Source: Asanoa ishikariensis (GTDB lineage: Bacteria > Actinomycetota > Actinomycetes > Mycobacteriales > Micromonosporaceae). From it: a stretch of 64,000 nt of DNA. The position numbers and the translations under genes were made by a program. The notes under the pieces are model-generated. The model had not been told where the DNA came from. It made no database searches and saw only the letters and a list, made by a program, of their open reading frames with translations. The stretch spans positions 1,178,001 to 1,242,000 of the forward strand of contig NZ_FNQB01000002.1 in the NCBI RefSeq assembly GCF_900107455.1, read 5' to 3'. Positions 45,630-61,740 of the stretch are shown here, piece after piece (position 1 is the stretch's first letter; each line of letters starts with the position of its first letter).

Positions 45630-47405
45630 ATGAGCCCACTCGACGTCGTACTCCTCTCCGCGGTCATTCTTCTCGCCGCCGCCGTCCTGGTCGGTCTCGT
45701 GCTGGGTGCCCGCGCGCTGCGCCGGCTCAACACCCAGCCCATCGGACCCACGCCGGAAGACCCCAGCTACACCGCCGAGCGCGAGCGGCACGAACAGTCG
45801 CTGGCGACGCTGCGCACCAAGGCCGAAGAAGTCAGCACCACCGTCGACACCGCGAAGTCCGCTGCCGCCGCCGCGCGCGCCGAGGCCGCCGCCTCCAAGG
45901 CCGAAGCGTCCTCCGCCCGGGCCGAGGCGCGCCGGGTGCTCGACACCGCCCGCGCCGAGGCCGACACCGTTCTGGAGCGCGCGCACAAGCAGGCCGAGCA
46001 GGACGCGGAACAACTACGCGCCGCCGCCCGCCGCAGCGGTGAACGCGAAGCCGCCATGGTCGCCGCCACCACCAAGGAGCACGCCGCCGACGTCGAGCGG
46101 CGCGCGGCCCGGATGGACGAGCGGGAGCGGCTGCACAGCGAAGAGGTCGAGCGGCTCACCGAGCGGGAACGCCGGCTCACCGCCGCCACCGCGGAGCTCA
46201 CCGAACGCGGCCAGGGGCTGACCGCCCGCGAGGTCGCGATCGCCGAGGCCGAGGAGCAGCGCCGCCGGGAGCTCGAGCGGGTCGCCAACCTGACCGCCGA
46301 GGTCGCCCGCACCGAGCTCATCGAGTCGATCGAGGTGCAGGCCAAGCGCGAGGCGGCGATCCTGGTCCGCGACATCGAGGCCGACGCCCGCTCGACCGGT
46401 GAGCAGCGTGCCCGGCACATCGTGGTCGAGGCGATCCAGCGGGTCGCCAGCGAGCAGACCGCCGAGAGCGTCGTCAGCGTGCTGCACCTGCCGGGCGACG
46501 AGATGAAGGGCCGGATCATCGGCCGCGAGGGCCGCAACATCCGGGCGTTCGAGTCGGTCACCGGCGTCAACCTGATCATCGACGACACACCCGAGGCCGT
46601 ACTCCTGTCGTGCTTCGACCCGGTCCGCCGCGAAATCGGCCGGCTCACCCTGGAGAAGCTGGTCCTCGACGGCCGGATCCACCCGCACCGCATCGAGGAG
46701 GTCTTCGAGTCCGCCAAGCAGGAGGTCGAACGCCTCTGCCAGCGGGCCGCCGAGGACGCCCTCGTCGAGGTCGGCATCACCGAGATCCACCCGGAGCTGG
46801 TCACGCTGCTCGGCCGGTTGCGCTACCGCACCAGCTACGGGCAGAACGTGCTCAAGCACCTGGTCGAAACAGCGCACATCGCCGGCATCATGGCCGCGGA
46901 GCTACGCCTGGACGCACCGCTGATCAAGCGCGGAGCCTTCCTGCACGACATCGGCAAGGCACTCACGCACGAGGTCGAAGGCAGCCACGCCCTGATCGGC
47001 GCCGACCTGGCCCGCAAATACGGCGAGTCCGACGAGGTAGTGCACGCGATCGAGGCACACCACAACGAAGTCCAGCCGCAGACCATCGAAGCGGTACTCA
47101 CCCAGGCCTCCGACGCCTGCTCCGGCGGCCGCCCCGGCGCGCGCCGCGAAAGCCTGGAGGCCTACGTCAAGCGCCTCGAGCGCATCGAGGAGATCGCGGG
47201 CGGCAAGACCGGCGTCGAGAAGGTCTTCGCGATGCAGGCAGGCCGCGAGATCCGCGTCATGGTCAAGCCCGACGACGTCGACGACATCGGCGCCGCCGTC
47301 CTCGCCCGCGACGTCGCCAAGCAAATCGAAGAAGAACTCACCTACCCCGGCCAGATCAGGGTGACGGTCGTGCGCGAGTCGCGGGTTACCGAGATCGCCA
47401 GGTAA
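45630..47405 (+). CDS. rny: ribonuclease Y
   Basis: 591 residues. N-terminal span (VVLLSAVILLAAAVLVGLVLGA) anchors the protein. A coiled coil of about 220 residues (Glu/Arg/Ala-rich, from residue ~45) follows, then a KH domain (GDEMKGRIIGREGRNIRAFESVTGVNLIIDDTPEAV with the GRxGRN loop) and an HD domain with HDIGKALTHEVEGSH and EAHHNEV. Endoribonuclease that initiates mRNA decay at the membrane. In actinobacteria with this gene it often lies near recA/miaB. The stop is followed, 30 bp on, by intergenic element copy C. Confidence 0.95.
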   Translation: MSPLDVVLLSAVILLAAAVLVGLVLGARALRRLNTQPIGPTPEDPSYTAERERHEQSLATLRTKAEEVSTTVDTAKSAAAAARAEAAASKAEASSARAEARRVLDTARAEADTVLERAHKQAEQDAEQLRAAARRSGEREAAMVAATTKEHAADVERRAARMDERERLHSEEVERLTERERRLTAATAELTERGQGLTAREVAIAEAEEQRRRELERVANLTAEVARTELIESIEVQAKREAAILVRDIEADARSTGEQRARHIVVEAIQRVASEQTAESVVSVLHLPGDEMKGRIIGREGRNIRAFESVTGVNLIIDDTPEAVLLSCFDPVRREIGRLTLEKLVLDGRIHPHRIEEVFESAKQEVERLCQRAAEDALVEVGITEIHPELVTLLGRLRYRTSYGQNVLKHLVETAHIAGIMAAELRLDAPLIKRGAFLHDIGKALTHEVEGSHALIGADLARKYGESDEVVHAIEAHHNEVQPQTIEAVLTQASDACSGGRPGARRESLEAYVKRLERIEEIAGGKTGVEKVFAMQAGREIRVMVKPDDVDDIGAAVLARDVAKQIEEELTYPGQIRVTVVRESRVTEIAR

Positions 47406-57795: not shown

Positions 57796-57995
57796 CTGCC
57801 CATCCTCGTTCGTCCGACTCCGTCTGGAATGCAAGGAATGCACCCTTCCGGCGTCGCCATAGCGCAGTATTGTTACCGCTGCATTGTCACAGGTCCCACC
57901 CCGTCCGCGTCGAGCGCCTATTGGCGACCGTGACCATACGGAGACCGGGGCGGGAATCAGGCGGGCACGGACCGCACCCCCGATACCGTTATGCC

Positions 57996-58715
57996 GTGAC
58001 CCTCGTAGCTGTCGCGGTCTGTCCTCATCCGCCCATGATCGTCCCAGAGGTGGCCGGTGGCGCCGCCGCTGAACTCGACGACCTGCGTTCCGCCTGCGCG
58101 AGCGCGGTCACGACGCTGGGCCAGGCCGGTGCGCGGCAGATCGTGGTGTTCGGTGCCGATTCGGCCATGACGTCCTATGACCCGCCCCAGCGCGGTTCCC
58201 TGCGCCCGTGGGGCGTCGACCTCGACGTGTCGCTCGGCCCGCACGACCCGCTGGAGAGCCACGAGTTGCCGTTGAGCCTGGTGATCGGCGCGTGGCTGTT
58301 GCGGCAACACCCGCCACAACAGCCCGTCATGGTCAACATGCAGGGCATCGCGGCGGACGCGTCGGCGGATGCCTGCCGGAATTTCGGGGAGTGCTGCGCC
58401 CCCGACGGCCCGTGGGGTCTGCTCGTGATGGGCGACGGGTCCGCGTCGCGCGGTGTGAAGTCGCCCGGGTACGACGATCCGCGCGCGGAGCCCTACGACG
58501 ACGCACTGGCGTCGGCGCTGGCCTCGGTCGACCTTTCCGTCCTGCACGGCCTCGACCCGGTCGTCTCGGCGGAGCTGGGCGTGGCCGGGCGCCCGGCGTT
58601 CCAGGCGTTGGCCGGAGCGGTGGGCGCGGCCGGCGGAACCTGGCAGGGCGACCTGTCCTACTACGGCGCGCCCTACGGCGTCGGGTACTTCGTCGCCAGT
58701 TGGCAACGCTCATGA
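57996..58715 (+). CDS. class III extradiol dioxygenase LigB-like protein
   Basis: 239 residues from GTG 57996. VAVCPHPPMIVPEVAGG near the start has the conserved His-Pro-Pro of the LigB fold; VVFGADSAMT, PLSLVIGAWLL and LLVMGDGSASRGVKSPGY follow. It is a Rv2728c-type protein found directly upstream of miaA in many actinobacteria, so a housekeeping or RNA-modification-linked role is more likely than aromatic ring cleavage. Its TGA overlaps the miaA ATG in ATGA (58712-58715). Confidence 0.8.
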   Translation: MTLVAVAVCPHPPMIVPEVAGGAAAELDDLRSACASAVTTLGQAGARQIVVFGADSAMTSYDPPQRGSLRPWGVDLDVSLGPHDPLESHELPLSLVIGAWLLRQHPPQQPVMVNMQGIAADASADACRNFGECCAPDGPWGLLVMGDGSASRGVKSPGYDDPRAEPYDDALASALASVDLSVLHGLDPVVSAELGVAGRPAFQALAGAVGAAGGTWQGDLSYYGAPYGVGYFVASWQRS

Positions 58716-59629
58716 CCGTGATCGCCGTGGTCGGACCGACCGCCGCGGGCAAGACCGCGCTCAGCCTCGCGCTGGCCGAGGAGCTCGGCGGCGAGGTGGT
58801 CAACGCCGACTCCATGCAGCTCTACCGCGGCCTCGACATCGGCACCGCCAAGGTGCCGGTGGGCGAGCGCCGCGGGGTCCCGCACCACGTACTCGACATC
58901 TGGCCCGTCACGGAGCCCGCGAGCGTGGCCGAGTACCAACGGCTGGCCCGGGCGGCGATCGACGACATCCAGGCCCGGGGCAAGGTGCCGCTGCTGGTCG
59001 GCGGCTCAGGCCTCTACGTGCGGGCGGTCCTGGAGGAGTTCGACTTCCCGGGTACGGACGCCGCCCTGCGCGCGTCCCTGGAAGCGGAGCTGGCCGAGGT
59101 CGGTGCGCTGGCCCTGCACGAGCGGCTGCGGGCGGCCGACCCGGTAGCGGCGTCGCGAATCCTGCCGACCAACGGCCGCCGGATCGTCAGGGCCCTCGAG
59201 GTGATCACCCTCACCGGCCAGCCGTTCGCGGCCGCCCTGCCGTCCGCGCCGGTGCCGTTTTATCCCTCTGTGCAGATTGGGGTCGATGTGGCCGGCCCTA
59301 CGCTCGACGAACGGGTGGCCACGCGGGTGTCGGCCATGTGGTCGGCCGGCCTGATCCCGGAGACGCGCGACCTGGTCGCGGAGGGCCTGCGCGAGGGCCG
59401 CACGGCGAGCCGCGCGCTCGGATACCAGCAGGTCCTGGCGTTTCTGGCGGGGGAGTGCACCGAACAGGAGGCGCACGACGAGACGATCCGGGCAACCCGC
59501 CGCTTCGTACGCCGCCAGCGCACCTGGTTCCGCCGCGACCCCCGGATCGCCTGGCTCGACGGCGCGGATCCTGCGCTGGCCACCATGGCGCTGCACGCGG
59601 TCCACGCGGAGTGCGCGGGTGCGCCATGA
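58712..59629 (+). CDS. miaA: tRNA dimethylallyltransferase
   Basis: 305 residues. P-loop GPTAAGKT (8-15), substrate motif NADSMQLYRGLDIGTAKV, DIW...ASVAEYQ, GGSGLYVRAVL and NGRRIVRALEV are the canonical MiaA segments. It transfers a dimethylallyl group to A37 of tRNAs that read UNN codons, the substrate then used by MiaB. The ATG overlaps the LigB-like stop. Its TGA is embedded in ATGATGG, so ribosomes could reinitiate toward dapF. Confidence 0.95.
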   Translation: MTVIAVVGPTAAGKTALSLALAEELGGEVVNADSMQLYRGLDIGTAKVPVGERRGVPHHVLDIWPVTEPASVAEYQRLARAAIDDIQARGKVPLLVGGSGLYVRAVLEEFDFPGTDAALRASLEAELAEVGALALHERLRAADPVAASRILPTNGRRIVRALEVITLTGQPFAAALPSAPVPFYPSVQIGVDVAGPTLDERVATRVSAMWSAGLIPETRDLVAEGLREGRTASRALGYQQVLAFLAGECTEQEAHDETIRATRRFVRRQRTWFRRDPRIAWLDGADPALATMALHAVHAECAGAP

Positions 59630-59673: not shown

Positions 59674-60849
59674 GTGCGGTTCGTCAAGGGGCATGGCACC
59701 GGCAACGACTTCGTGATCCTCCCGGACCCGGACGGCGTTCTGGCGCTGACACCGGAGACGGTGGCGGCACTCTGCGACCGCCGCTTCGGGATCGGCGCCG
59801 ACGGCGTCCTACGGGTGGTCCGCACGGCCAAACACCCCCACGCGGTCGACCTGGCCGGCGAGGCCGAGTGGTTCATGGACTACTGGAACGCCGACGGCTC
59901 CATCGCCGAGATGTGCGGCAACGGCGTACGCGTCTTCGCCCGCTTCCTGGCCGCCGAGGCTCTGGTCGAGGGAGCGACGTTCCCGATCGCCACCCGCGCG
60001 GGCGTGGTCCAGGCCACGGTCACCCCGGACGCTGTCTCGGTCGTCCTCCCGCTCCCGCGCGTAGGCGCGGGCTCCACGGCCACGATCGGCGGCCTGACCT
60101 TCACCGGCACGTCGGTCGACGTCGGCAACCCACACCTGGTGTGCGCGCTCCCGTCCGGCATGTCCCTGGGCGATCTGGACCTGACCAGCGCACCGGCGTA
60201 CGACCCGGCGGCCTTCCCCACCGGCGTCAACGTCGAGTTCGTAGTGCCCGGCGCCACCGAAGCAGCCACCTTCGGCCACATCGCCGTAGACCGCCGCCCA
60301 GGCCCGGACCACGGCCACATCGCAGTGGACTCGCCGCCGGCCGATGGCCCGGACCGGGGCCACATCGCAGTGGACTCGCCGCCGGCCGACGGTCCGGATC
60401 GCGGTCATATCGCGGTGGACTCGCCGCCGACGGACGGCCCGGCCCGGGGTCACATCGCGATGGACGCCCTGCCGGCTGACCGGCGGGAGCAGGGTCACAT
60501 CGCCGTCGACTCGCCGCCACCGACCCAGCCGGACCGGGGCCACATCGCCGTCGACCGCCGCGGCGGGGAGTTCGGCCACATCGCGGTCGACAAGCGCCCG
60601 GTCCCGGTAGGCGTGGACGCCCACGTGGCGATGCGCGTCTACGAGCGCGGCTCAGGCGAAACCCTGTCCTGCGGCTCAGGCGCGATCGCGGTAGCAGCAG
60701 TCGCCCTACGCGACGCAGGCAAGCAAACAGGCGTCGTGGCAGTAGACCTACCGGGCGGCCGCCTAACGGTCGCCTTCGACGGCGAAACCTGCGTCTTCAC
60801 AGGCCCAGCCGTCCTAGTAGCCACAGGCGAAACCCTCCCCACCACGTAA
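59674..60849 (+). CDS. dapF: diaminopimelate epimerase with tandem-repeat insertion
   Basis: 391 residues from GTG 59674 (MRFVKGHGTGNDFV, SD AAGGGGG); ATG 59626 would add 16 residues. The enzyme interconverts LL- and meso-diaminopimelate for lysine and peptidoglycan. Catalytic Cys81 is in AEMCGNGVR and Cys333 in ETLSCGSGA; GNPHLVC is also present. DapF is normally about 275-290 residues. The excess comes from residues 196-313, where the segment just before HVAMRVYERG is expanded into eight GHIAVD/GHIAMD repeats at residues 201, 214, 229, 244, 259, 274, 289 and 301, mostly 15 residues apart with SPPADGPDR-like linkers (60274-60612). The frame is open throughout, so the gene looks functional. 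Confidence 0.92.
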   Translation: MRFVKGHGTGNDFVILPDPDGVLALTPETVAALCDRRFGIGADGVLRVVRTAKHPHAVDLAGEAEWFMDYWNADGSIAEMCGNGVRVFARFLAAEALVEGATFPIATRAGVVQATVTPDAVSVVLPLPRVGAGSTATIGGLTFTGTSVDVGNPHLVCALPSGMSLGDLDLTSAPAYDPAAFPTGVNVEFVVPGATEAATFGHIAVDRRPGPDHGHIAVDSPPADGPDRGHIAVDSPPADGPDRGHIAVDSPPTDGPARGHIAMDALPADRREQGHIAVDSPPPTQPDRGHIAVDRRGGEFGHIAVDKRPVPVGVDAHVAMRVYERGSGETLSCGSGAIAVAAVALRDAGKQTGVVAVDLPGGRLTVAFDGETCVFTGPAVLVATGETLPTT

Positions 60850-61089: not shown

Positions 61090-61740
61090 TAAAACGGAGA
61101 CGCCCAAGGCGTTGCCAGTTCGAGCCGGCGCGGAGACAGGGCGCCAGCATGCGGAGGCGCGGTCGGAGGCGTTGCCAGTTCACGCTGGCGTGAGCGGGGC
61201 GGCGGCGGATTTCGGAGGCGCTGTCCGAGGCGTTGCCAGTTAGGGGCGTCTTGGACGGGCTGCTCGGCCGCTGGTGCGGTGGCCGGCGGTGCCGTCGGTG
61301 GCGCGGGCTGGACCGCGGCGACCAGCGGCAAGCGGAAACCGCCCGAGGCGTTGCCAACGCGAGCCGGTGTGGGCGAGCCGGCGTCATGCGGAGACACCGC
61401 CTGCGGCGTTGCCAACTCGGGCAGCGTGGGTGGGGCGGCGGTATGCGGAGCCACTGCCCGCGGCGTTGCCAGTTCGGCCGGGTGTGGGCGGAGCGCCGGT
61501 ATTCGGAGACACAGTCTGCGGCGTTGCCGGCTCGAGCAGTAGCGGGCAGGAACGGGCATGCGGAGGGACTGGCTGCGGCGTTGCCAGTTCGAGCCGGCGT
61601 GGGCAGGCCGCAGTAAGCGACAACCGCCCGAGGCGTTGCCAACGCGAGCCAGCGTGGGCAAGCGCTGGCAGATTGAAACACCGGCCAAAGCGTGCCAGCG
61701 CCAGCCACTGTGTAGGCGGGCCGCTGGAAGCGGCGCCGCG
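61090..61740. repeat. degenerate tandem array, 55-61 bp period
   Basis: CGTTGCC cores occur at 61111, 61171, 61232, 61350, 61408, 61465, 61523, 61579 and 61634, with a decayed one at 61691 and probably one lost near 61291. Units share ATGCGGAGACAC ... GCGGCGTTGCCAGTTCGAGC ... CGTGGGC. The period is often not a multiple of 3 (spacings 61, 58, 58, 56, 55), so any long frames here shift at every unit and are not coding. It occupies most of the 1.3-kb dapF-malic enzyme gap; the stretches 60850-61089 and 61741-61893 have no recognised features. Confidence 0.75.

Follow-up and report, generated by a model that had tools for sequence, protein, structure and literature searches.

The stretch of Asanoa ishikariensis DNA analysed here (64,000 nucleotides, hereafter the window) carries on its forward strand a gene for diaminopimelate epimerase, DapF, whose coding sequence is interrupted in frame by an array of short repeats. 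DapF, an essential cell-wall enzyme in this genus of soil bacteria, supplies the meso-DAP needed for peptidoglycan and lysine and is generally regarded as a compact, stand-alone enzyme. The features relevant to the analysis are the following, with residues numbered from the GTG start.

59674–60849, forward: dapF, diaminopimelate epimerase, 391 residues, GTG start, identified by TIGR00652, PF01678 and a fold match to 5m47
59914–59916, forward: codon of the first catalytic cysteine (residue 81, CGNG), invariant in the 93-row DapF alignment
60250–60618, forward: expanded beta-hairpin turn (residues 193–315) between predicted strands 186–192 and 316–324, a turn that is short in relatives
60274–60591, forward: array of eight GHIAVD/GHIAMD units (residues 201–306, 106 residues), delimited by motif reading, Tandem Repeats Finder and a DNA motif scan
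60292–60312, forward: first, distinctive linker, RRPGPDH
60448–60465, forward: variant unit GHIAMD
60556–60573, forward: penultimate linker, RRGGEF
60592–60621, forward: post-array segment, KRPVPVGVDA
60670–60672, forward: codon of the second catalytic cysteine (residue 333, SCGSG), invariant in the 93-row DapF alignment

As a DapF, the Asanoa protein is an ordinary member of its family. It scores 204.5 bits against the TIGR00652 profile, well above the equivalog cut-off of 114.65, and 162.7 bits against PF01678 (Pfam DAP_epimerase), and its gene is the only DapF-matching locus found in this genome (G000 below). Translation could alternatively begin at an in-frame ATG at 59626, which overlaps the stop codon of miaA. 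C81, N186, E324–R325 and C333 are invariant across 93 aligned DapF rows, made up of 87 of the 91 fetched non-Asanoa loci and six Asanoa loci; residues 81 and 333 are the catalytic cysteines of the family, and N186 and E324–R325 are presumably substrate-binding or active-site residues, by analogy with H. influenzae DapF. The preliminary description of this DNA had reported that the frame and both cysteine motifs were intact, which is the case (CGNG at 81, SCGSG at 333), and the epimerase probably stays active. The protein has 391 residues, against roughly 255–298 in most relatives compared and 274–275 in E. coli DapF, which has no array.

The dapF gene is preceded by miaA and, in the five Asanoa genomes compared for it (G000, G001, G002, G003 and G005), followed by a convergent malic enzyme gene, beyond which, in G005, lies a gene for a GTPase with HflX-type domains. 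Upstream of miaA, an ORF at 57870–58715 (forward) has no Pfam match at E up to 0.001; its stretch VAVCPHPPMIVPEV is reminiscent of class III extradiol dioxygenase-like proteins. Elsewhere in the window a 21-bp tandem repeat of about four copies, with 64% matches, occupies 45850–45934. Between dapF and the malic enzyme gene, the intergenic region contains a tandem array of its own in all four Asanoa genomes examined, with a different unit each time:

Window, 61107–61660: units of 57–61 bp
Locus L095, 4339–4881: units of 80 bp
Locus L097, 4399–4555: units of 52 bp
Locus L096, 3874–4041: units of 61 bp

All five exact copies of GGCGTTGCCARYTC in the G000 genome lie within this intergenic region.

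The in-frame GHIAVD/GHIAMD block noted earlier within dapF is confirmed, and comprises seven GHIAVD units and one GHIAMD unit that begin at residues 201, 214, 229, 244, 259, 274, 289 and 301, with spacings of 13, 15, 15, 15, 15, 15 and 12 residues. At the DNA level Tandem Repeats Finder detects a repeat with a 45-bp period at 60274–60561 (score 273), and a scan of both strands for the motif with up to two mismatches gives eight matches in the window, compared with a mean of 0.67 in shuffled sequence. The units at either end are flanked by recognisable sequences. The first linker reads RRPGPDx in five of the six Asanoa genomes and RRPAPDF in the sixth; the penultimate linker is identical as protein in five of six, its unit being missing from G005; and the ten residues separating the last motif from HVAMRVYERG read KRPxPxGVDA in all six. 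The first linker and the post-array segment each have a pN/pS of 0.22, about that of the core.

Comparison with relatives confines the array to one genus. It is present in an open frame in all six Asanoa genomes, each time in the only DapF-matching locus found (in three of them two match rows represent two halves of one locus), with 8 units in G000, 10 in G001, 10 in G002, 12 in G003, 8 in G004 and 6 in G005, 54 in total. The possibility of an artefact or a decayed gene, raised in the preliminary description, is excluded by the in-frame arrays of the other five genomes. The variant GHIAMD unit has its best match in unit 7 of G002, and it and the SPPPTQPDR unit that follows are reciprocal best matches between G000 and G002, so that some units can be traced between species. 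In G005 a 114-bp block is repeated 2.2 times with 96% matches, a recent duplication from which copy number is probably still changing. A scan of a contig collection gave 161 pattern matches and three relatives, all three of them Asanoa dapF (A. siamensis, A. hainanensis and A. iriomotensis); these are assemblies already counted among the six and add no evidence.

In the wider family, DapF was matched in 146 of 150 genomes searched (the six Asanoa included), and the array is absent from all 60 readable non-Asanoa DapFs, which represent 40 genera (61 loci were fetched, from 41 of the other 43 genera, L068 being unread). When 66 residues of the array were used as a query on 298 genomes of the order, 20 genomes matched at E ≤0.01, none of them, apart from G000 itself, below 9.3e-4. 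Across the phylum, DapF was found in 266 of 296 genomes, with spans of 768–939 nt among the matches listed, and no insert occurs at the array site in 36 readable DapFs out of 39 fetched, a set made up of the 30 top-scoring loci and nine others of longer span. In a quick tree of array-free DapF sequences (66 rows) Asanoa forms one clade with support 99. The hairpin turn itself varies in length among the DapFs of the family and is somewhat long already, and in another genus (G006, locus L058) the same turn carries a small independent repeat, EGSAGVP EGSAGVP DGAGGAP, given which the turn seems to be a permissive site. The conserved motif array appears to be new for a DapF: in agreement with the earlier statement that no such insertion was known, the titles and abstract openings listed from the open-licence literature contain no report of a GHIAVD array in DapF, and the entries listed on enzymes with repeated motifs and on the genomes of Asanoa include nothing relevant.

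Purifying selection on the motif is much stronger than on the DapF core as a whole, although the silent sites are well diverged. All 54 units read GHIA[V/M]D and 52 are exact GHIAVD, spelled by 28 distinct DNA 18-mers, and not one unit in the six genomes is decayed. Over all 1431 pairs of units pS is 0.548 and pN 0.0066, giving a pN/pS of 0.012, a ratio stated without a P value, as the pairs are non-independent; the corresponding core values are 0.32 for the first 190 codons and 0.26 for the 66 codons from HVAMRV. Within the 33 fifteen-residue units the motif (0.0185) is much more conserved than the linkers (0.58), as in a linear-motif array. All four third bases are used for each of the glycine, alanine and valine codons of the motif, and since third bases are thus free, the constraint acts on the protein. 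In the same 33 units motif pS is 0.51 within genomes and 0.55 between them, values close enough to show that the identity of the units does not derive from recent copying or gene conversion. The proposal that the array had expanded with its protein sequence kept is therefore borne out (pN/pS 0.012 at pS 0.55). Between genomes, pS is 0.57 for the first unit, 0.65 for the third-last, 0.35 for the penultimate and 0.26 for the last, with no amino-acid change in the motif at any of these positions. Constancy at one position is in itself not rare, as all six genomes likewise agree in protein sequence in 65 of 246 six-codon core windows; what is unusual is constancy across 52 of 54 units (54 of 54 with Met allowed for Val) inside a fast-changing segment.

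Codon usage distinguishes the arrays from the cores. T-ending codons account for 92 of 746 codons in the arrays and 35 of 1708 in the cores, and the array has the higher proportion in every one of the six genomes (Fisher p from 1.5e-10 to 0.018). Rare-codon use as a property of the array was nevertheless rejected: the neighbours are also T-richer (40 of 497 codons in the malic enzyme gene and 53 of 474 in the miaA ORF, counted from a point that is probably ahead of its real start codon), and the unusual bias therefore lies in the dapF core. The motif DNA is more diverse than redrawn codons in four of the six genomes, the exceptions being G000 and G004.

In the predicted structure the array forms a loop on an otherwise normal DapF. 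As described in PMC12039745, the active site of DapF lies in a cleft that separates two pseudosymmetric domains, and the AlphaFold2 model built on 93 sequences has two such alpha/beta domains. It reaches pLDDT of at least 90 for 262 of 391 residues, with a pTM of 0.74 and core blocks mostly at 92–98, and its best Foldseek match is C. glutamicum DapF (5m47; E 4.3e-30, TMt 0.87). The array blocks, covered by only six sequences, have pLDDT of 30–43 and no secondary structure, residues 202–302 being nearly all below 50. The C. glutamicum enzyme (5m47, 5h2g, 5h2y) shares fold, catalytic cysteines and conserved residues with Asanoa DapF, but has only a few residues between the aligned segments at the hairpin where Asanoa has the array. 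The core is thus predicted to fold normally, with the array as a flexible and probably disordered loop leaving the hairpin turn, between predicted strands 186–192 and 316–324; the model is silent on whether the array becomes ordered upon binding. The invariant N186 opens the first strand of the hairpin and E324–R325 close the second, and since these residues lie at one end of the hairpin, the array would lie at the opposite end, presumably away from the active site. The location inside the catalytic domain given in the preliminary description therefore holds for the linear sequence, but the model puts the array in a hairpin turn, probably at the end away from the active-site residues. The extra beta-sheet that had been envisaged is absent from the good model; within units 2 and 3, a short strand each at IAV (pLDDT about 26–32) appeared only in an earlier, discarded model built on 20 sequences, which had a mean pLDDT of 50.6, was poor throughout its second half and was replaced. 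The array has no match among PDB sequences at E up to 10, and in an array-only Pfam search only Ntox47, DUF6897 and CHAP appeared, all below threshold and taken as chance.

As the origin of the motif, duplication of the strand preceding the second catalytic cysteine, the source suggested earlier, is not supported: the best GHIAVD match lies there in only 3 of 66 DapFs. In 53 of 66 it lies instead at the C-terminal GxVAVD strand, but this match ranks only 19th among 720 permutations, and the C-terminal strand as a possible source of the motif is a lead, not a result. Two further candidates were rejected. For duplication of the native turn and strand as a unit, a pattern count places the best alignment at the hairpin in only 4 of 60 DapFs (median z 0.3). 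The other is borrowing of GHIAVD from ribosomal protein S4. Exact codings of the motif outside dapF (1, 1, 2, 2, 1 and 1 in G000 to G005) are at about chance level by a rough estimate. The motif does occur once in an rpsD-like ORF in two genomes examined (L098 and L099; HGHIAVDGRKVDRPSY), near chance; this ORF is presumably rpsD, encoding ribosomal protein S4.

Taken together, we consider the best reading, with a probability of roughly one half, to be that the array is a selected, multivalent docking module carried by a probably working epimerase. An Asanoa ancestor would have had a short, already variable DapF hairpin turn that gained a proline-rich segment, and this segment would then have multiplied into a series of GHIAVD motifs, six residues each, with interior linkers free to change and distinctive end units that are recognisable in all or nearly all species. 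The loop would present 6–12 copies of one short segment for docking, most likely to a partner protein that pairs with each GHIAVD through beta-strand addition, and may thereby recruit DapF multivalently, for example to DAP-using or cell-wall assembly. The retention of the array in an open frame in six of six Asanoa genomes, with 54 of 54 units intact, the contrast in pN/pS between motif (0.012), linkers (0.58) and core (0.26–0.32), and the predicted disorder of the array on a confidently modelled core all argue for docking. Arrays of short linear motifs in disordered regions are known as ‘stickers and spacers’, and the Asanoa array resembles them in its identical short motifs and its variable proline-rich or charged linkers; it differs in lying inside the hairpin of a metabolic enzyme, in the near-perfect identity of its motifs and in its distinctive end units. 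A precedent for partner binding by DapF is the solved E. coli RppH–DapF complex (6d13), in which DapF serves as a protein partner besides catalysis; a like role is proposed here for Asanoa.

Several observations weigh against docking. The few neighbouring genes examined (miaA, malic enzyme, HflX-type GTPase) suggest no partner. Redundant ligands would be expected to leave some decayed copies; their absence speaks rather for a role in structure or self-pairing. Constancy at a single position is, as calibrated above, common in DapF; the lower silent divergence of the last unit (pS 0.26) means that the units are not equally old evidence; and all 54 come from one genus and hence are non-independent.

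The main rival, which we regard as possible but on balance doubtful, is homotypic assembly, in which GHIAVD strands pair within a chain, across the dimer or between dimers to give oligomers, filaments or condensates, the proline-rich linkers loop out and the distinctive end units act as caps. Conservation of every unit while copy number is free would suit such pairing, as each strand must match its neighbours, and the distinctive end linkers could be such caps, yet constraint on the first and post-array linkers does not exceed that on the core (pN/pS 0.22 for both). In favour, the motif is unharmed by linkers that range in length between 6 and 17 residues, but variable length together with the lack of large hydrophobic residues sets the linkers apart from those of classic solenoids. 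The resemblance of the motif to the C-terminal GxVAVD strand of DapF (53 of 66, rank 19 of 720) and the short IAV strands of units 2 and 3 in the discarded low-confidence model hint at strand formation, against which stand the strand-free array of the good model and the lack of any PDB sequence match at E up to 10. Functional-amyloid and beta-solenoid proteins have repeated strand-like segments and possible caps; the Asanoa array differs from them in its irregular spacing (12–23 residues), unlike that of a regular coil, in having no strands in the good model and in its lack of a sequence match. A stronger version, that the array is a new repeat domain whose 6–12 capped GHIAVD strands pair across DapF molecules into a reversible filament or condensate, appears unlikely; if true, the His and Asp residues of all the strands would line one face, where a metal or a common ligand might bind.

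Neutral slippage in a permissive loop, with the motif kept by chance or by turnover from intact copies, would accord with the variable length of the turn across the family and the repeat in G006 (L058), with the tandem arrays in the neighbouring intergenic region of four genomes examined, and with varying copy number including the recent 114-bp duplication in G005. It is strongly disfavoured, and very improbable, given a motif pN/pS of 0.012 at high silent divergence, which in the fifteen-residue units is nearly as large within as between genomes. A peptide precursor, in which DapF would carry units destined for release or modification as multi-core peptides, is less credible still. Multi-core precursors do contain numerous copies of a short core separated by spacers that vary, much like this array, but no modifying enzyme is found among the few neighbouring genes examined, and the array lies within an enzyme that has to fold its core around it.

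We give hardly any credence to selection of the repeat as DNA or RNA (a binding site or structure) with the protein repeat as a by-product: the 45-bp periodicity would fit, but third positions vary through all four codons of glycine, alanine and valine, there are no inverted repeats of at least 20 bases in 60200–60660, and the DNA motif with the following CCGCC occurs only in dapF in this genome. An in-frame mobile element is equally far-fetched. Rickettsia palindromic elements, as described in PMC10969869, are likewise in-frame, repeat-bearing insertions in a metabolic gene, and the Asanoa array is indeed an in-frame repeat insertion in a housekeeping gene. Unlike those elements, it is found at no other locus (seven DNA-pattern matches in the genome, all in dapF) and the interval 60200–60660 contains no inverted-repeat pair of at least 20 bases; moreover, it occupies the same site in six species whose DapFs form one clade in the quick tree. 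Such an origin is excluded for the present copies, and only the very first insert could qualify. An assembly or sequencing artefact or gene decay is refuted by the agreement of six assemblies, including G001 (one contig) and G005 (three), with frame and catalytic residues intact.

An array kept under selection in this way points to a second function of DapF, either docking or self-assembly, in an enzyme of cell-wall and lysine synthesis. Its repeated, easily synthesised peptide offers a handle for finding a partner or an assembly state, and the array marks the DapF hairpin turn as a site that is permissive for sequence insertion.
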